NCBI GenBank assembly: GCA_025928515.1
Contig: JAICJI010000001.1
Coordinates: 1-64,000 of the forward strand
Source: Thermoleophilia bacterium
GTDB lineage: Bacteria > Actinomycetota > Thermoleophilia > Gaiellales > Gaiellaceae
Reading direction: 5' to 3'
DNA: 64,000 nt
The notes under the pieces are model-generated. The model made no database searches and was not told the origin of the DNA. It worked only from the letters and a program-made list of their open reading frames with translations. Below are positions 34,131 to 41,957 of the stretch, one piece after another (position 1 is the stretch's first letter; each line of letters begins with the position of its first letter). The position numbers and the translations under genes are program-made.

Positions 34131-34807
34131 CCTTGCGCCTTCCAGCCGCCACGATCCGCACCCAGGTCGAGCTGCCGCTGCGGTTCGCCGACGGCTACGA
34201 GACGGAGGCCCGGGTGTTCAGCTTCGACGGGCTTGTCGACGGCCGGGAGCACCTCGCCTTCGCGCTCGGCGATCGCACCGCGCCCGTCCCCGCAGACGAG
34301 CGTCACGTGCCCTTGATCCGCCCTCACAGCGAGTGCCTCACCGGAGACGTGTTCGGCAGCCGGCGCTGCGACTGCGGCCCGCAGCTGCGCGAGGCGGTCG
34401 AGCGCATCGCCGACGTCGGAGGGTACCTGCTCTATCTGCGGCAGGAGGGTCGCGGCATCGGTCTGTACTCCAAGCTCGAGGCGTACGCGTTGCAGGACGA
34501 CGGGGCCGACACCTACGAGGCGAACCTCGCCCTCGGCCACGAGGAGGACGAGCGCAGCTACCTGGCCGCCGCACAGATGCTGCACGCGCTCGGCGCAACC
34601 ACGGTCGCCCTCCTCACCAACAACCCCGACAAGGCGCTGCAGCTCCGCTCGTGCGGCGTGACGGTCGTCGAGCAGGTGCCGACGGGCGTCTACGTCTCCG
34701 ACGCGAACCAGCGCTACCTCGAGGCGAAAGCCCTCCGCGGCCGGCACACGCTCGACCTCCCGAACGTGCTCGCGCCGAGCTCGAGCGTCAGTGGTCGAAC
34801 GCGTTGA
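34127..34807 (+). CDS. ribA: GTP cyclohydrolase II
   Basis: A 226-residue stand-alone GTP cyclohydrolase II. Zinc ligands are C70, C81 and C83 in HSECLTGDVFGSRRCDCG; the GTP-binding RQEGRGIGLYSKLEAYALQD and the LLTNNPDKALQLRSCGV loop are intact. Tyr120 in LEAYALQD corresponds to the residue (Tyr105 in E. coli) needed for full conversion of GTP to the diaminopyrimidine with release of formate. No ribB domain is fused, and no ribE or ribH is nearby, so this copy probably serves the local operon, not riboflavin supply. Its stop overlaps the convergent fusion gene by 20 bp. Confidence 0.92.
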   Translation: MTLRLPAATIRTQVELPLRFADGYETEARVFSFDGLVDGREHLAFALGDRTAPVPADERHVPLIRPHSECLTGDVFGSRRCDCGPQLREAVERIADVGGYLLYLRQEGRGIGLYSKLEAYALQDDGADTYEANLALGHEEDERSYLAAAQMLHALGATTVALLTNNPDKALQLRSCGVTVVEQVPTGVYVSDANQRYLEAKALRGRHTLDLPNVLAPSSSVSGRTR

Positions 34808-37139
34808 GGAACTGATTCCGGAAGGCGCTCATAAGCCAGACCGGCGCGTCCGGGCTCGGCAGCATCCCGTCCGTCCAACCCCAGCCCGACAACCTGCGGA
34901 TCACCTTCGGGTCGTGGGCGATGATCGTGGTCGGGACCTCGTGATTCGCCTGCGAGATCACCCTCGAGGGCTGGTGGTCGCCCAGGACGATGAGGACGGT
35001 GTTCTTGTTCCCGTAGCGCTCGACGAACGAGTACAGGGCACGTAGCGCGTACTGGATCGACGTCGCGTAGCCCTGCTGTGTGTCGGTCAGCCCGGTGCGG
35101 TCGATGGGGATGCGGTCGAAGATCGAGCCGTCGCCGAGCCGCCGCCAGGAGATCAACTGTGGAATGCGCGTCCACGGCTCGTGGCTCGAGGTGAGGTCGA
35201 TCTCGGAGAAGACGGGACGGCGATGGGGCTTTGCCAGCGCGCGCTTCTGCAGGGCCTGGAGCGCCCACTGGTCGGGCATCGGGGAGAAGCTGAACTTCGG
35301 GCCGCGGTAGCCGAGGTTGTCGCGATCCAGGATCGTCCCGTAGTGGTAGAAGGAGTGCCCCTCGGGCCAGCTGCCGTGGGTCGCCGGAACGTCGGCAACC
35401 GTCCTCCAGCCCGCGCGCCGAAACGCGGAGGTGAGCGTGAGCCGCTTGCTGTCGACGAGCTGCGAGTAGCGCCCGGGGCTGTCGACCCAGACCCCCGACT
35501 GCAGCGTGGAGTGAGCGAGCCAGCTGCCTCCACCGAACGTCGACGACGTGAGCCAGCCGCTGCGGGCCGAGAAGCCGTCGGCCTGCAGCTGGTCGTTTCC
35601 GGCGTTCACGACGTCGTCGACGCCCGGGGAGAACGACGTTCCCTGGACGGCCATCTGCCCGTAGCTCTCGACGAACACGAGCAGCACGTCCTTGCCGCGC
35701 AGGCCCTTCAGGAGCCGGTTCGAGGGCGTGTCGCGGAACGGGTCCTTGCGGCCGATCAGAGCCCGGAACCGCGCCTCCGAGCGAAAGTCCGCCTGCACGG
35801 CCCGGACCTCGTCGACGGCGAAGTTGGCCGCGCTCGTGGATGCGACGGCGGCACCCGAGACCTGAGCACCGAATGCCCAGCAGAGCACCCAGGCGGCCGA
35901 GAGCGCGGCCACCACCGCGAGCGACTGCGTGCGATGACGCGCGGCCACTCGCGTCACGCGGCCGAGGGCAAGCGCAGGCATGACGAGCGCGGCTACGCCG
36001 AGCACCGCGGCCGCGGCCACCGCCAGGTCGGCGTCCCTGTTCCCGAACGTGTCGCGCACCGTCCCCACGCCGACCGAGAGATACGACCAGTCCTCGACCG
36101 GGTTGAACTGCCGGTCGAAGAAGACGAAGAAGCCGAGGTCGAAGAGCTTCGCGACCACCAGCAAGCCCACCAACGGCCCGAGCAGCCACGGGACGAAACG
36201 CCCCGCACGAGCGGGCAGCACCACCACGAGGATCACGAGAACGAGCCCTTCGAGCGGGACGCGCACGAAGGAGCCGGCTGTGAGCTGCCACGGACGGATC
36301 GGAGCCACGAGCGCGGCCCAGACGACGAGCAGGCCGACGATCGTCAGCGCGGACGTCACCGCCGGGTGTCGGCGGCGCACCGCTGCGACGCGAGCGGGGG
36401 CCGCGGCACGGCGGCGCCAGAGCCACAAGACGTCGTGGCCGAACGACTCGGCGAGCAGGGCCAACGCGACTGCCAGGAGCACCGTGGATACGCCCGTCGA
36501 CACGACGCCGGCGGCCGCGATCGCCAAGGCGACTCCCTGCGCTGCCGTCACCGTCTTGCGCCAGTCGCGCCGCGGCAACTGCGCCTGCAGCCAGTGGAAC
36601 CGCCAGCCCGCCGCCAGGAACAGATAGCGCGCAGCCCCGATCAGCAACACCCAGGCGCCGACGGTCGGGGCGACGTCGATGCTGAGCACGAGAATGAGGA
36701 AGGCGTCGACCTCGCCGTCCAGCTTCGCGCCGAGCGCCGACTCCGTTGCGGTTCGCCGCGCGACCCAACCGTCGACGAAGTCGAGCGCGAGCGCGACGGA
36801 CGAAAGCGTGGCGAGCGTGGCCACCGCGACGTCTCGCTCGAACGACGCCGCGGTCAGCGCGGCGACCCCGATCGCGAGCGACGCACGGGCGAGCGTCACC
36901 CAACCGGCCGGCCCGAGCCGCGCCGTCCGGTCGCGCCGGAGCGCATGCGCGAGCGCGAAGTCCAGCGTCAGGGAACAAGCGATGCCGACGACCCAGCCCG
37001 CACCCCCGATCCCGACCGTGTCCGCGAGTGCAGCGAGGAGCAGGAGCTGGCCGACGAGCCCGGCGAGCGGCCCGAGCTGCTGCCTCTGGTCGGCGAGGGG
37101 GCGGCGACCCACCCGCAATGTTGCTCCCCGCTCGAGCAT
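34788..37139 (-). CDS. CDP-alcohol phosphatidyltransferase fused to an alkaline-phosphatase/sulfatase-like domain
   Basis: A 783-residue membrane protein (793 if ATG 37169 is used). The N-terminal part has the full CDP-alcohol phosphotransferase signature spread over DFVDGWVARR, an eight-residue spacer, G, and KLDGEVD; several membrane helices follow (LVILVVVLPARAGRFVPWLLG and others). The C-terminal half is an extracytoplasmic LtaS/sulfatase-like domain with KDVLLVFVESYGQM, SEIDLTSSHEPW and TVLIVLGDHQPSRV, resembling the metal site Asp/His pattern. It could build and then modify a phospholipid-like headgroup outside the membrane. Convergent with ribA; conserved proximity to the pterin-like operon suggests one pathway. 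Confidence 0.82.
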   Translation of the reverse strand: MLERGATLRVGRRPLADQRQQLGPLAGLVGQLLLLAALADTVGIGGAGWVVGIACSLTLDFALAHALRRDRTARLGPAGWVTLARASLAIGVAALTAASFERDVAVATLATLSSVALALDFVDGWVARRTATESALGAKLDGEVDAFLILVLSIDVAPTVGAWVLLIGAARYLFLAAGWRFHWLQAQLPRRDWRKTVTAAQGVALAIAAAGVVSTGVSTVLLAVALALLAESFGHDVLWLWRRRAAAPARVAAVRRRHPAVTSALTIVGLLVVWAALVAPIRPWQLTAGSFVRVPLEGLVLVILVVVLPARAGRFVPWLLGPLVGLLVVAKLFDLGFFVFFDRQFNPVEDWSYLSVGVGTVRDTFGNRDADLAVAAAAVLGVAALVMPALALGRVTRVAARHRTQSLAVVAALSAAWVLCWAFGAQVSGAAVASTSAANFAVDEVRAVQADFRSEARFRALIGRKDPFRDTPSNRLLKGLRGKDVLLVFVESYGQMAVQGTSFSPGVDDVVNAGNDQLQADGFSARSGWLTSSTFGGGSWLAHSTLQSGVWVDSPGRYSQLVDSKRLTLTSAFRRAGWRTVADVPATHGSWPEGHSFYHYGTILDRDNLGYRGPKFSFSPMPDQWALQALQKRALAKPHRRPVFSEIDLTSSHEPWTRIPQLISWRRLGDGSIFDRIPIDRTGLTDTQQGYATSIQYALRALYSFVERYGNKNTVLIVLGDHQPSRVISQANHEVPTTIIAHDPKVIRRLSGWGWTDGMLPSPDAPVWLMSAFRNQFLNAFDH

Positions 37140-37146
37140 CCGCACG

Positions 37147-37156
37147 GCACTACGGT
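37147..37156. promoter_or_regulatory. Possible back-to-back -10 boxes of the fusion gene and the 37187 methyltransferase
   Basis: GCACTACGGT: rightward TACGGT is followed after 7 nt by an A at 37164; leftward TAGTGC lies 7 nt before ATG 37139. The shared central TA repeats the arrangement at 652-661 and 17170-17193, but the leftward box lacks the final T, so this is weaker. Confidence 0.3.
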
Positions 37157-37186
37157 GCGCCCTATGCATCGGTTTCCGGCGAAGCC

Positions 37187-37951
37187 ATGAGGCAGGACGA
37201 GCGTGGCCCGTTCGTCGAGGCTCTGCGGCCGGCACGCGAGCAAGCCTACGGCCCCGGCGAGTTCGTCGAACAGGAGAGTCTCATGCGCGCGTCGGAGATC
37301 CGCGGCCTCGCCGAGCGGGCGCGCGTCGGAACCGGCGTCTCGGTGCTCGACCTCTGCTGCGGCATCGCCGGCCCCGGCCGTTTCCTCGCGCGAGAGCTCG
37401 GTTGCGACTACGTCGGCGTCGACGCGAGCGCGAGTGCCGTGGAGATCGCACGCGAGCGTGCGGGGGGCTCGCTCTGCCGCTTCGTGGTCGCCGAGATTCC
37501 GCCGCTACCGCCCGGCCGGTTCGAGGTGGTGCTGCTCCTCGAGACGATGCTCGCGTTCCGCGACAAGGAGACGCTGCTACACGGGATCGCCGGCGTGCTC
37601 CCTACGGGTGGTCGTTTCGCGTTCACGCTCGAGGAGGGGCAGCCGCTGACGCAGCAGGAGCGAGCGTCCATGCCCGACGCCGACACGGTCTGGCTCACGC
37701 CGCTCGACGAGATGCACGCTCTCCTGGCCCGGGCCGGCTTCGCCGTGCGCTGGGAGGAGGACTGCAGCGAGCCCCATTGCGCCGTGGCCGAGTCCCTGGC
37801 GAGCGCCTACACCGCCGACGCCGACTCCATTGCGTCCCGGATCGGCAGCCGAGCGCTGGACGAGCTACTCGCGGCTCATCAGCTGTGGGTCGAGTGGCTC
37901 GCGACGGGCCGCGTCCGCAAGTTTGCGGTCGTCGCCGGGCGGCAGGGGTGA
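37187..37951 (+). CDS. SAM-dependent methyltransferase
   Basis: A 254-residue class I methyltransferase: motif I VLDLCCGIAGPGRFLAREL, motif II VGVDASASAVEIARERA, then FEVVLLLETMLAFRDKETLL and GGRFAFTLEEGQPL. The N-terminus (GPFVEALRPAREQAYGPGEFVEQESLM) suggests a small-molecule substrate, as in sarcosine or terpene-type methyltransferases. It is divergent from the phosphatidyltransferase fusion. An eight-codon leaderless frame at 37164-37190 ends in an ATGA overlap with its ATG. It may belong to the pathway encoded at 29348-34807. Confidence 0.8.
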   Translation: MRQDERGPFVEALRPAREQAYGPGEFVEQESLMRASEIRGLAERARVGTGVSVLDLCCGIAGPGRFLARELGCDYVGVDASASAVEIARERAGGSLCRFVVAEIPPLPPGRFEVVLLLETMLAFRDKETLLHGIAGVLPTGGRFAFTLEEGQPLTQQERASMPDADTVWLTPLDEMHALLARAGFAVRWEEDCSEPHCAVAESLASAYTADADSIASRIGSRALDELLAAHQLWVEWLATGRVRKFAVVAGRQG

Positions 37952-37991: not shown

Positions 37992-38453
37992 TCAGTGGTG
38001 TCCGCCGGGATCGCGGCCGTTGTCGTCGCCGATGTCATGGCTAGGGGCGGCGCCGGTCACCGCGCCGGCGGACTTCGGGGCGGCAGTCGCGGCGCGGCAC
38101 GTCTCCCCGGAGCGGGTCGCCGTCGCGGTGATGCGGGCGTGCGGCCGTGACGCGATCAGGCGGCGCAGGTCGAACGAGCCGCTCGGAGCGTGCGTCCTGA
38201 CGGTGAGGGATGCCACGAGGACGCCGTTGCGGCGTAGCGTGACGTGCCATGGAACTCCGTTCCGGTTCTCGTCGACCTGGAACTCGACCTCGATGCCGCG
38301 GTCCTCGCGGCTCAGGTCGAGTTTGCTCGTCGACTGCTGCGTGCAGGCACCGCGGACGATGCGATGGCTGGTTCCCTTCGCGGACGCGGCCTGAACCGCT
38401 ACGAGCGAAATCGCGAAAAAGGCGAGTGTGAGTGGGATGAGCAAGCGGCGCAT
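37992..38453 (-). CDS. Secreted protein A, paralogue of the 40520 gene product
   Basis: A 153-residue exported protein with a signal peptide (RRLLIPLTLAFFAISLVAVQAASA). The mature part reads R-I-V-R-GAC, SKLDLSRED, GIEVEFQVD, NGVPWHV, then FDLRRLI and a final Cys in SGETCRAAT. It aligns along its length with the 40520 product (R-V-A-GAC, GAIEVRFGL, GHGVWRI, VELRRNL, LGCRAS), including both Cys, so a small beta-sandwich with one disulfide is likely. A GAAAGGA ribosome site precedes ATG 38453. The C-terminus adds a His/Gly/Asp-rich tail absent from its paralogue. Transcribed away from the histidine kinase gene. Confidence 0.72.
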   Translation of the reverse strand: MRRLLIPLTLAFFAISLVAVQAASAKGTSHRIVRGACTQQSTSKLDLSREDRGIEVEFQVDENRNGVPWHVTLRRNGVLVASLTVRTHAPSGSFDLRRLIASRPHARITATATRSGETCRAATAAPKSAGAVTGAAPSHDIGDDNGRDPGGHH

Positions 38454-38489
38454 ATTGGTGATCCTTTCGTCGATCATCGGAGTAAGGCC

Positions 38490-38519
38490 AGCCTCGCGAT
38501 CGGCCGGTCCGAGCCGCAA
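38490..38519 (-). promoter_or_regulatory. Promoter of secreted protein A
   Basis: On the minus strand TTGCGG (38519-38514), an 18-bp spacer and GAGGCT (38495-38490). The -35 element forms the end of the 22-bp operator, the same register as at the paralogous gene. Confidence 0.45.
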
Positions 38520-38538
38520 TGAGACATTGGTCGGAGTC
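38517..38538. promoter_or_regulatory. 22-bp operator, copy 1
   Basis: Contains the dyad CAATG-n3-CATTG followed by GGTCGGAGTC. Twenty of 22 positions match the inverted copy at 40465-40486. It overlaps the -35 element of secreted gene A and lies 21 bp before the kinase start. A binding site for the neighbouring NarL-type response regulator is the simplest interpretation. Confidence 0.65.
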
Positions 38539-38559
38539 GCCGGGCCGACCGCCCGCTCG

Positions 38560-39834
38560 GTGATCGTCCGCTTCGCCACCGGCACGCTCATGGCGATCGT
38601 CGTTGCCGTGGTCGGCGGCTACTTCGTTCTGCGGTCGGTCGCGATCGACGAGGCGAAGCAGCAGACGCGCGTGCGTGTGAAGGAAGAGGCGAAGCTCGTC
38701 GGCGCGACGGTGACCGACGCGCTCCTGCGGGGAAGCGGGAAGGCGCAAGAGGCCGTCGACAACGCGGTCGTCGGTCGCGTGCTGACCAACTCGATCGTGC
38801 GCGTGAAGATCTGGTCGTCTGCGGGCCGCGTCCTCTACTCCGACGAGCACGCCGAGATCGGCGGCCACTATGCGCTGGACCGCGGACAGCTGCACTTGTT
38901 GCGGCACGGCGGCGCGGAGGTCGAGGTGTCCGATCTCAGTCGGCCCGAAAACCGGCTCGACCGCCAGCAAGGCCGGCTGCTCGAGGCGTACACGAGGATC
39001 CGCACGCCCTCCGGCACGCCGCTGTTGTTCGAGATCTACCAGCGCTTCGGTTCGGTCACGGACCAGGCGCGCAGTCTGCTCGGGAAGCTCGCGCCGCCGA
39101 TTCTCGGCGCGATCGGCCTCATCCTGCTCGTCCAGGTGCCGCTCTTCTGGTCGCTCATGCGCCGGCTGCAACTGGGCTACGAGCAGCGGGAGGGCCTGCT
39201 CGCGAATGCCGTCACGTCGTCACGGCGGGAGCGTCGACGGGTTGCGGCGTACCTCCACGACGGGCCCGTTCAGGACCTGGCGGGCTTGGCGTTCTCGCTG
39301 GCTCCGGTGGCCGACGACGCGGAAACACGCGGAGCGGACCGCGAGGCTGCGGTCGTCCGGACGGTGATCGACCGCCTGCGCGGGACCGTTCGTGACCTGC
39401 GCGCGCTGCTCGTCGACCTCCACCCGCCGACGCTTGCGACCGCGGGTCTCGAGGCGGCGCTCGGCGATCTCGTCAGCCCGTTCCCCGCCCGCGGCACGAA
39501 GGTCGAGCTGCGCGTCGACGGCGGCGACCTCCTCGGCCTCGACACGCAGGCGCTCGTCTACCGCGTCGCCCAGGAGGCCGTCCGCAACGTGCTCGCCTAC
39601 GCCGAGGCGAGCAACGTCTCGGTCGAGGTCGGAGTCGCGGATTCCACCGCGCACCTGCTCGTCGCCGACGACGGGCGTGGCTTCGGGCCCGAGACGCGGG
39701 AGCGCCGTCGCGCAGAGGGACATCTCGGCCTGTCGCTCGTCGAAGAGCTTGCCCAGCAGGCGGGCGGGAGCCTCACCATCGACTCGCGCGAAGGCGCCGG
39801 GACTCGCGTGCGCCTGGAGGTGCCGATCCGATGA
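38560..39834 (+). CDS. Sensor histidine kinase, NarL/DesK-type (HisKA_3)
   Basis: A 424-residue membrane sensor: helix 1 at about residues 8-25, an extracytoplasmic domain of roughly 150 residues (containing VKIWSSAGRVLYSDEHAEIGG, a Cache/PAS-like pattern), helix 2 at about 176-198 (PPILGAIGLILLVQVPLFW), then HisKA_3 with the phosphorylated His near 232 in YLHDGPVQDLAGLA, and the ATPase domain with AVRNVLAYAEASN and DDGRGFGPE (about residue 369). The GTG at 38560 is chosen because earlier in-frame starts fall inside the operator. It overlaps the regulator gene (ATGA). The outer domain probably senses an envelope signal. Confidence 0.88.
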   Translation: MIVRFATGTLMAIVVAVVGGYFVLRSVAIDEAKQQTRVRVKEEAKLVGATVTDALLRGSGKAQEAVDNAVVGRVLTNSIVRVKIWSSAGRVLYSDEHAEIGGHYALDRGQLHLLRHGGAEVEVSDLSRPENRLDRQQGRLLEAYTRIRTPSGTPLLFEIYQRFGSVTDQARSLLGKLAPPILGAIGLILLVQVPLFWSLMRRLQLGYEQREGLLANAVTSSRRERRRVAAYLHDGPVQDLAGLAFSLAPVADDAETRGADREAAVVRTVIDRLRGTVRDLRALLVDLHPPTLATAGLEAALGDLVSPFPARGTKVELRVDGGDLLGLDTQALVYRVAQEAVRNVLAYAEASNVSVEVGVADSTAHLLVADDGRGFGPETRERRRAEGHLGLSLVEELAQQAGGSLTIDSREGAGTRVRLEVPIR

Positions 39835-40466
39835 TCCGCGTCCTCATCGCCGACGATCACGGCATCGTGCGCGACGGCCTCGCCGGCGTCATCGCAGCCC
39901 AGACGGATCTCGAGGTGGTCGGCTCGGTCGAGAACGGCGCGGAAGCCGTCGAGTCGTGCCGCAGCCTCGCCCCCGACGTCGTGCTGATGGATCTCGAGAT
40001 GCCGGTGCTCGACGGGATCGAGGCCACTCGCGTCATCCGGGAGGAGCACCCGGAGACCGCGGTGCTCGTCCTCACGTCGTTCTCGGACGCGCGCCGCATC
40101 ACGGCGGCGCTCGGCGTAGGCGCGGCCGGTTATCTGCTCAAGGACGCGTCCGCGGATGACGTGATCCGTGGCCTCCGGGCCGCCGCGGAGGGCGGAGCGC
40201 CGCTCGATCCAAAGGCTGCACGTCTCCTGCTCGAGGCACGGGATGCCCCGGACCCGCTCGAGGGGATCTCACCGCGGGAACGCGAGGTGTTCGCGCTGCT
40301 GCTCGACGGGCTCCCGAACAAGCTGATCGCCCACCGCCTCGGCATCAGCGAGAAGACGGTGAAGACGCACCTGACGAACATCTTCCGCGAGATCGGCGTG
40401 GCCGACCGGCTGCAGGCCGTGCTCTGGGCCGAGCGCCAGGGGCTCCGTTCCGACCTCTCCAGCTGA
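39831..40466 (+). CDS. NarL/FixJ-family response regulator
   Basis: A 211-residue regulator. The receiver domain (residues 1-120) has the acidic pair in IADDHG, the phosphoacceptor Asp in VVLMDLEMPVLDG, the Thr in LVLTSFSD and the Lys in YLLKDAS. The C-terminal LuxR-type helix-turn-helix is SPREREVFALLLDGLPNKLIAHRLGISEKTVKTHLTNI. It is co-translated with the kinase. The operators on both sides of the kinase-regulator pair are its likely targets, so it would control the two secreted proteins and perhaps itself. Confidence 0.92.
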   Translation: MIRVLIADDHGIVRDGLAGVIAAQTDLEVVGSVENGAEAVESCRSLAPDVVLMDLEMPVLDGIEATRVIREEHPETAVLVLTSFSDARRITAALGVGAAGYLLKDASADDVIRGLRAAAEGGAPLDPKAARLLLEARDAPDPLEGISPREREVFALLLDGLPNKLIAHRLGISEKTVKTHLTNIFREIGVADRLQAVLWAERQGLRSDLSS

Positions 40467-40486
40467 CTCGGACCAATGTCCCATTG
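40465..40486. promoter_or_regulatory. 22-bp operator, copy 2 (inverted relative to copy 1)
   Basis: Reads GACTCGGACC followed by the dyad CAATG-n3-CATTG. Compared with the reverse complement of 38517-38538 only two positions differ. It begins at the stop of the response regulator gene and ends in the -35 element of secreted gene B. Confidence 0.65.
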
Positions 40487-40512
40487 CGCGGCCATGAGGC
40501 GGCCCGCACACT
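40484..40512 (+). promoter_or_regulatory. Promoter of secreted protein B
   Basis: TTGCGC (40484-40489), a 17-bp spacer and CACACT (40507-40512), then 7 nt to the GTG at 40520, so the message should be leaderless or nearly so. The -35 hexamer overlaps the operator by three bases. Confidence 0.5.
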
Positions 40513-40519
40513 GGGAAGC

Positions 40520-40918
40520 GTGAAGCGTCTCCTGCTCCTGGTGCTCGTCCTGCTCGGCCTGTCGGCCGGAGCCGCACAGGCGCGCGGCAACGACGGCGGC
40601 GGAGGCGACGGCGGAGAGATCCGCGTCGCCGGCGCCTGCGGGCGTGGCGTGACATCGTCACTCCGCCTTCGCGGGCGCGACGGTGCGATCGAGGTGCGCT
40701 TCGGGTTGCGGCAGACGCGCGGGCACGGCGTCTGGCGGATCGCGATCGTCCACGAGGACCGCATCTCCGCACGCGCTACGCGGAGGACGACGCGCAGCGA
40801 CGACTCGGTCGAGCTGCGGCGGAATCTGACCGATCTCCGTGGCAGCGACACCGTCGTGATCCACGCCTGGGGACCGCGCGGCCTCGGTTGCCGCGCGAGC
40901 GCGACGCTCTCTCCGTGA
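40520..40918 (+). CDS. Secreted protein B, paralogue of the 37992 gene product
   Basis: A 132-residue exported protein with signal peptide VKRLLLLVLVLLGLSAGAAQA, a Gly/Asp-rich linker (NDGGGGDGG) and a mature domain homologous to secreted protein A. The shared pattern is R-x-x-GAC, T/S-x-S/K-L, IEV-x-F, G-x-W-x, S-F/V-D/E-LRRNL and a second Cys near the end (LGCRAS). No catalytic residues stand out; a ligand-binding or structural role outside the cell is likely. Controlled by the same operator as its paralogue and located directly after the response regulator gene. The family is not one I can name. Confidence 0.72.
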   Translation: MKRLLLLVLVLLGLSAGAAQARGNDGGGGDGGEIRVAGACGRGVTSSLRLRGRDGAIEVRFGLRQTRGHGVWRIAIVHEDRISARATRRTTRSDDSVELRRNLTDLRGSDTVVIHAWGPRGLGCRASATLSP

Positions 40919-40928
40919 GAGCCGTGGA

Positions 40929-41957
40929 GTGATCGCCGAAGCCGTTGCGGCGGTGACACTGACCCGCGGGCCGGTGGCCGAAAGCGTGACGCGGCGCAGC
41001 GCGATCATCTCCTTCCGCACCTCGGTGGCGGGCGAAGCATCCGTCCTCTTGCCTGGCAGAGCGCGCGTCCGGGCCGGCTCGGGCGTCGACCACGTCGCCC
41101 GGCTGACGGGGTTGACACCGGGACGGCGCTATGCGTACAGGGTCGAGGGACAGTCGGGAGCGCTCGCCGACGGCCGTTTCCGCGCGGCGCCGGCTCGCGC
41201 GTCGAGGTTCACCTTCGCCGTCGTCGGCGACAGCGGCAGCGGAACGACGAACGAGTCGGACGTCGCCTCGCTCATCGGCTCCTGGCACCCGGACTTCGTG
41301 CTCACGGTGGGCGACAACGCCTACCCGCTCGGCTCGGCGGGGCTGCTGGATCGCGACATCTTCCGCCCTTACGCGGCAGTGCTGCGAGAGTCGGCGTGGT
41401 TCCCCGCTCTGGGCAACCACGACGTGAAGGCAGAGGGTGGGAAGCCGGAGCTCGAGGCATTCCACTCGCTCGGCAAGGAGCGCTGGTATCGCTTCACATG
41501 GGGGAATGCGGCCGTCGTCGTGCTCGACTCCGACACGTCGGTCGCGCCGGGCTCGCCCCAGTTGCGCTTCGCGCGACGCGCCTTGGCGCGGCGTTCTTGC
41601 TTCCGCTTCGCCGCGTGGCACCATCCACCGTGGGAGCCGCCAGGCAGGCCGCACAGCCCTGGGCTCCGCCGCAACATCGTCCCGCTCGTGCAGAAGGACG
41701 GCGTCAGGGTGGTGTTCGTCGGTCACCTGCATGCCTACGCCCGCAGCCGGCCGCGCGATGGGGTCGTCTACGTGGCGGTGGGCACCGGAGGAGCCTCGCT
41801 CGACAACGACGCCCGCAAGCTGACGATCCCCTCCGCGCGCATCGTCCAGGGTCATTTCGGTGCGCTGCGAGTGGACGTCGTCCGCCGCAAAGCACACCTC
41901 CGGTATGTAACGGTCGACGGTCGAGTTCGTGATCGTTTCAGCCTGAGCTGCCGCTAG
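40929..41957 (+). CDS. Purple acid phosphatase-like metallophosphoesterase
   Basis: A 342-residue protein: an N-terminal fibronectin-like domain (about 5-90, RSAIISFRTS and LTGLTPGRRYAYRVEG) and a metallophosphatase domain with VVGDSGSG, LTVGDNAYPLGSAGL, PALGNHDV, AAWHHPPW and VGHLHAYARS, covering the usual di-metal ligand blocks GDxG, GDNxY, GNHD, H and GHxH (here GHLH). Relatives are secreted, yet no signal peptide precedes the domain from GTG 40929 (the N-terminus begins IAEAVAAVTLTRG, as if already mature). Either the true start is missed or the protein is cytoplasmic. It would hydrolyse phosphomonoesters. Confidence 0.82.
   Translation: MIAEAVAAVTLTRGPVAESVTRRSAIISFRTSVAGEASVLLPGRARVRAGSGVDHVARLTGLTPGRRYAYRVEGQSGALADGRFRAAPARASRFTFAVVGDSGSGTTNESDVASLIGSWHPDFVLTVGDNAYPLGSAGLLDRDIFRPYAAVLRESAWFPALGNHDVKAEGGKPELEAFHSLGKERWYRFTWGNAAVVVLDSDTSVAPGSPQLRFARRALARRSCFRFAAWHHPPWEPPGRPHSPGLRRNIVPLVQKDGVRVVFVGHLHAYARSRPRDGVVYVAVGTGGASLDNDARKLTIPSARIVQGHFGALRVDVVRRKAHLRYVTVDGRVRDRFSLSCR

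Follow-up and report, generated by a model that had tools for sequence, protein, structure and literature searches.

Why should a bacterial two-component system lie between genes for two small exported proteins that resemble each other, and what would those proteins do? The question is raised by positions 37,992 to 40,918 of a 64,000-nucleotide stretch (the window) of contig JAICJI010000001.1, assembly GCA_025928515.1, from a Thermoleophilia bacterium of the family Gaiellaceae. Here, genes for a sensor kinase and a response regulator are flanked on the left by a gene for a predicted exported protein of 153 amino acids and on the right by one for a predicted exported protein of 132 amino acids, which we call SP-L and SP-R (SP for small protein). 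An inverted repeat found in both small-gene promoters points to an answer, in which the regulator would turn on the two secreted proteins from a DosR-like activator site and these would protect the cell envelope. We give this explanation as a whole a probability of roughly 0.6. Its regulatory core, that the regulator would directly activate both predicted targets, is highly probable and is based on the layout, the homology of the two SPs, the paired box, its promoter-like position, and its conservation beside the kinase-regulator pair.

An inverted repeat shared by two promoters

A 24-bp inverted repeat, CGCAATGRGACATTGGTCSGAGTC, which had escaped an earlier note on this DNA, occurs once in each small-gene promoter, at 38515-38538 and 40465-40488. 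The two copies are identical at 22/24 bases, a score reached by 0/2,000 shuffles, and the repeat's inner 22 bases match twice in the window and not once in 100 shuffles. The left copy contains a box of 20 bases that faces SP-L (38517-38536), and the right copy contains one that faces SP-R (40467-40486) and begins directly after the regulator stop codon. In the organism's own genome (2,019,453 bases, 78.7% complete), the 20-base core is present at up to 3 mismatches only at these two promoter sites. With a more permissive, degenerate pattern, one further weak site appears (3 mismatches), compared with two for the reversed control.

The end of each box overlaps a predicted -35 element, TTGCGG at 38514-38519 (minus strand) for SP-L and TTGCGC at 40484-40489 (plus strand) for SP-R. 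These are followed by predicted -10 elements of the form ANNNT: AGGCT at 38490-38494 (minus), at an offset from the box that is conserved, and ACACT at 40508-40512 (plus). The same anatomy recurs among 82 unique box copies read toward their genes. The box ends in TTG, positioned as a -35, in 69 of them, and ANNNT is found at offset 42 in 57 and at offset 41 in 19, together 76/82, with at most 5 copies at any other tested offset and approximately 1.8 expected per offset. Given a transcription start about seven bases past the -10, the box centre would lie approximately 44 bp ahead of the start, which is the position of a class II activator. Other promoters partly conserve a possible third half-site, GGACC at 38506-38510 (minus), at the corresponding offset; the SP-R promoter lacks it. 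Because the -10 of SP-R ends seven bases ahead of its GTG start codon, the SP-R mRNA is possibly leaderless. According to PMC6448022, 79% of Mycobacterium smegmatis promoters carry ANNNT as their -10 signature, and leaderless transcripts make up 24% in that species.

The protein that would act at these sites is a NarL-type response regulator (39831-40466, plus), with Pfam matches to Response_reg (90.4 bits; cut-off, 30.2) and to the GerE helix-turn-helix (67.1 bits; cut-off, 23.5) and with Asp54 as the predicted phospho-acceptor. Its presumed partner is a HisKA_3 sensor kinase (38560-39834, plus; HisKA_3, 30.5 bits with a cut-off of 24; HATPase_c, 57.4 bits with a cut-off of 26.4) with His233 in an HDGPVQ motif. 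The kinase likely starts at GTG 38560 or at TTG 38527, the latter being inside the box. Its structural model has low overall confidence (mean, 63), with a core that matches the DesK and ZraS structures and an outer domain modelled too weakly for naming. In the proposed mechanism, the regulator would bind the DosR-like box, CTNGGACCAANGTCCCATTG when read toward the gene, where it overlaps the predicted -35 of both SP promoters. Once phosphorylated, it would act there as a class II activator and switch on SP-L and SP-R together as the main output of the system.

The genes for SP-L (37992-38453, minus) and SP-R (40520-40918, plus) are each identified by an open reading frame and homologues, and SP-L also by an all-beta sandwich model; their signal peptides were judged by eye. 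All four genes are as the earlier note had described them, a HisKA_3 kinase and a NarL-type regulator between outward genes for small exported proteins, in both Pfam and open reading frames. The symmetry it saw extends to the small genes, which do point outward, and not to the kinase and regulator, which run with SP-R. Its alignment of the two proteins is significant, as the BLOSUM62 local score (100 at full length and 86 for the mature part) is reached by 0/20,000 shuffles, and a profile-against-profile comparison gives a probability of 98.6 and an E value of 8e-16 over 127 columns. The shared residue patterns it listed are present, if slightly loose, with RIVRGAC and NGVPW in SP-L against RVAGAC and GVW in SP-R. 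The second cysteine was placed too far along in the case of SP-L, in which a sandwich domain carrying Cys37 and Cys119 is followed by a 34-residue tail containing Asp and His.

Neither small protein has a Pfam or NCBIfam family above the cut-off. The SP-L model is an eight-strand sandwich, with blocks at a predicted local distance difference test (pLDDT) score of 89-97 over residues 31-120 and a mean of 76.9. When known relatives of SP-L were sought by sequence and by fold, only generic sandwich matches came up, the nearest kind being the immunoglobulin-like sandwich, with SoxZ and DUF3244 as examples. In alignments, a VHExR motif is kept in SP-R rows, and most SP-L rows have NG at that place. 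A 65-row SP tree, built on 117 columns only, has one supported set of 34 rows (100/96), made up of every upstream SP-L row (15), the second genes of the 3 tandem arrangements, and 16/19 of the orphans (SP loci without a kinase-regulator pair). The remaining downstream SP rows fall outside this set.

The pair and its box among relatives

A search of 101 related genomes matched SP-R in 15 and SP-L in 12, and a search with both SP types matched 48/399 genomes of the class and 24/396 of the phylum. The kinase outer domain is more widespread than the SPs, being detected in 79/399 class genomes at E 1e-8. We annotated the window slice together with 51 fetched loci, 52 sequences in all (500,856 bp), with an SP gene in 51/52. 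SP matches in G038, G041, and G073 (L046, L048, and L051) were excluded before counting as false or too weak, and L042 has no SP frame. A kinase and a regulator, each scoring >150 bits, lie beside the SP in 32/51 SP-bearing sequences of the class. The outward layout of the window is found in 14 of these, two tandem downstream SP genes in 3, a downstream SP alone in 13 as far as detected, an upstream SP alone in 1, and another order in 1 (G386). These rows are not independent, as the SP rows of G053 and G318a are identical and some genomes supply two or three loci.

A named genome collection of 47 loci, which partly shares contigs with the fetched set, has a near full-length kinase in 31/47 and both kinase and regulator in 29/47. 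The named loci include those of Nakamurella, Phycicoccus, an uncultured Marmoricola, two genomes titled Chloroflexi, and Svornostia abyssi J379; the titles are those of the records, and misbinned contigs are possible. We found nothing relevant in the open-licence literature on two-component systems of Thermoleophilia, NarL-type regulators with a divergent secreted protein, a Gaiella operator, or Svornostia abyssi.

On both strands of the 52 sequences, the 20-base core at up to 5 mismatches has 59 matches, compared with 2 each for the reversed and complemented controls. Fifty are near an SP start, all on the strand opposite to the SP gene; 8 are near a kinase start only (range, -40 to +200); and the single match elsewhere (G370) faces a reading frame rich in Asp and His at the end of a contig. 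By hand count, the box is present at 44/50 kinase-linked SP genes and at 6/19 orphan loci. Diverged forms, unscored, are visible by eye ahead of most of 15 SP genes from other groups.

These counts bear on whether the box could instead belong to another, global regulator, with the kinase-regulator pair merely a neighbour under the same control. The boxes at 6/19 orphan loci would suit such a regulator. However, strong boxes, with at most 1 mismatch to the degenerate pattern, occur in 19/29 searched kinase-bearing genomes and in 0/10 without the kinase (p 0.0004), the box is also found at paralogous kinase loci that have no SP, and the two core sites in the window's own genome are too few for global control. 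We consider this explanation very improbable next to direct activation by the adjoining regulator.

Control of the kinase gene through the same box was considered for the window and dropped, as the boxes near kinase starts in the 52-sequence set all face away from the kinase; 5/9 of the non-SP cases in that set face another reading frame. At two loci without an SP (G245 and G285), a box does face the kinase, so autoregulation may still occur. In G245 (L201:4864-4899), two boxes on opposite strands overlap a short way ahead of a paralogous kinase, and one faces it, unlike in the window.

Genes behind the box and their possible role

We read the genes behind 34 boxes without an SP target, drawn from kinase loci without an SP, a few sites fetched for their strong box, and boxes of the first set (25 at a limit of 4 mismatches, plus 9). 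By our reading, 24/34 precede a predicted exported protein. Nine of these are peptides rich in Asp and His, several of which resemble the SP-L tail in style (GADDPAGH or GDDHG). Three match Pfam Copper-bind above the cut-off, and there are single cases of a weak cupredoxin, a weak multicopper-oxidase-like protein, a Lipoprotein_15, and a cupin (by eye), along with 8 unnamed proteins. Small Asp/His-rich, predicted exported peptides, several in this style, stand behind the box where SP-L is missing, at L188:5842, L211:4880, L194:1702, L103:7445, and L118:1393. At a second kinase locus in G133 (L183:5066 and 7423), the kinase-regulator pair is a paralogue, and of the two strong boxes there, one precedes a very long multicopper-oxidase-like reading frame and the other an extra receiver-domain gene.

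Because the box targets are mostly predicted exported proteins, with Asp/His-rich and copper proteins among them, an envelope output is likely and a link to metal is plausible. The kinase outer domain may sense a stress on the envelope, whether related to metal or of another kind. The sandwich proteins, once secreted, may bind metal or damaged material and so shield the envelope. A response to envelope stress in general is probable, and a response to metal specifically is a tentative suggestion that we favour less. Among the roles that the earlier note had proposed, envelope-stress effectors fit best, because the common promoter motif makes the SPs look like outputs of the system.

The earlier note had also proposed a ligand sensed by the kinase. 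SP-L or SP-R would then be no protective output but a ligand or co-sensor that signals activation to the kinase, which would suit their predicted export to the side of the kinase outer domain and the divergent SP beside the kinase, conserved in 14/51 sequences with both genes. Genes that are apparently switched on by their own system are more often outputs or dampers, however, and related loci have unrelated proteins behind this box, so that no single ligand family is kept; the SP loci without a pair also argue against it. An activating ligand is therefore unlikely.

Slighter still is the chance that the SPs act on neighbours or surfaces, as adhesins, toxins, or similar products. Predicted export, a predicted immunoglobulin-like sandwich, and a conserved cysteine pair would suit such a role, but we found nothing that supports adhesion or toxicity. 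Each SP is a single small domain with no anchor or repeats seen and no Pfam or NCBIfam family above the cut-off, the two neighbours tested gave no conserved extra gene that could be an immunity partner, and the box-mates in related loci include metal-binding-like proteins.

Several observations weigh against envelope-protective proteins under direct control of the adjoining regulator. The orphans make up 19/51 SP loci of the class, and among 20 further loci from other families of the phylum, the pair is present in 2 (G496a and G545) and absent from 18; the earlier note's own check, whether homologues sit beside kinase-regulator pairs, does not refute its view, given the 32 class sequences and 29 named loci above, and these loci count against it. 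No box was detected at threshold for 6/50 kinase-linked SP genes (G156, G216, G322, G370, G394, and the SP-R of G312b), the motif was derived from the window itself, and the 5-mismatch limit was our own choice. For orphan SPs with readable promoters, a test that takes in G312a, G313, and G318c and omits G131, whose promoter is off the contig, the link between box and kinase is not significant (kinase in 5/6 genomes with the box and in 3/10 without; p 0.12). In G313 (L112:4568-5410), the SP and boxes are kept and the kinase was not found at E 1e-8, apart from a 28-bit piece; it may have decayed or been lost. Ten of the 34 non-SP boxes have no predicted exported target, 4 preceding regulator or kinase genes and 6 nothing clear. 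Finally, the Asp/His tail is absent from several SP-L proteins in the alignment, so metal binding is not general.

The two loci from another family of the phylum that do have the pair, in G496 and G545 (L257 and L261), have two SP genes in tandem behind the kinase and regulator, all on one strand. To the right of the window's locus, a metallophosphoesterase gene (Pfam Metallophos; 40929-41957, plus) begins 11 bases past the SP-R stop codon and could be cotranscribed with SP-R. Both it and an upstream methyltransferase were excluded as parts of the locus, because the other 51 scanned sequences contain no homologue of either. On the left, one long open reading frame (34788-37235, minus) combines a CDP-alcohol phosphatidyltransferase domain with a weak, below-cut-off match of sulfatase-like type.

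Regulation of the SPs by the adjoining system would supply an unnamed family of small exported proteins with a likely regulator and a promoter, along with a role that can be tested. Used as a search key, the conserved box could bring together numerous hypothetical secreted proteins from little-studied actinobacteria in one envelope response. A broader and more speculative idea, which we think unlikely to hold in full, is an envelope-defence regulatory clan of Actinomycetota and Chloroflexota, in which one NarL-type kinase-regulator lineage would carry its own portable box/-35 cassette ahead of interchangeable secreted parts (sandwich pairs, Asp/His-rich metal peptides, and cupredoxins), with the divergent part as a feedback ligand of the kinase.

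Comparison with known systems

The kinase and regulator have their superfamily in common with the MctS/MctR and MadS/MadR families, but their NCBIfam scores are far under the curated cut-offs. The kinase matches MctS at 9.7e-32 (109.9 bits, against a cut-off of 700) over residues 184-422, without the outer domain, and the regulator matches MadR at 4.8e-46 (156.8 bits, against 300).

The likeness to the DosR (DevR) regulon of mycobacteria, which also has a NarL-type regulator, is one of the box only and lies in its GGGAC-N-arms-CC spacing. The DosS kinase carries GAF sensor domains; the kinase here has no Pfam GAF match at E <=1. A stringent DosR consensus is given as GGGACTTNNGNCCCT in a part of PMC6448022. 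In the window, the palindromic core GGGACATTGGTCC is present at SP-R, and the SP-L copy is off by one base per arm. Unlike the DosR site, the present box has extra flanking parts (CTN...CATTG), and its targets are small exported proteins adjoining the system.

The envelope-stress systems CpxAR-CpxP and ZraSR-ZraP of the Proteobacteria likewise combine a two-component system with an adjoining gene for a small exported accessory protein. The present locus differs from both in its NarL-type regulator and HisKA_3 kinase and in having a second SP homologue downstream. Its SP-L is modelled as all-beta, with eight strands in the confident part, whereas CpxP and Spy are helical. ZraP is said in the title of one paper to be a chaperone and a repressor of ZraSR. 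As stated in a passage of PMC6737893, cpxP is divergent from cpxRA, and CpxP is a highly induced target that inhibits CpxA. Here, the gene for a small, predicted exported protein is divergent from the kinase and has the shared box, through which the system would control it. By analogy with CpxP and ZraP, we hypothesize that one SP, most likely the divergent SP-L, may dampen the activity of the kinase; in this form, as feedback, an SP sensed by the kinase is possible. If such feedback is true, the locus would be a counterpart of the CpxP/ZraP design built from unrelated parts.

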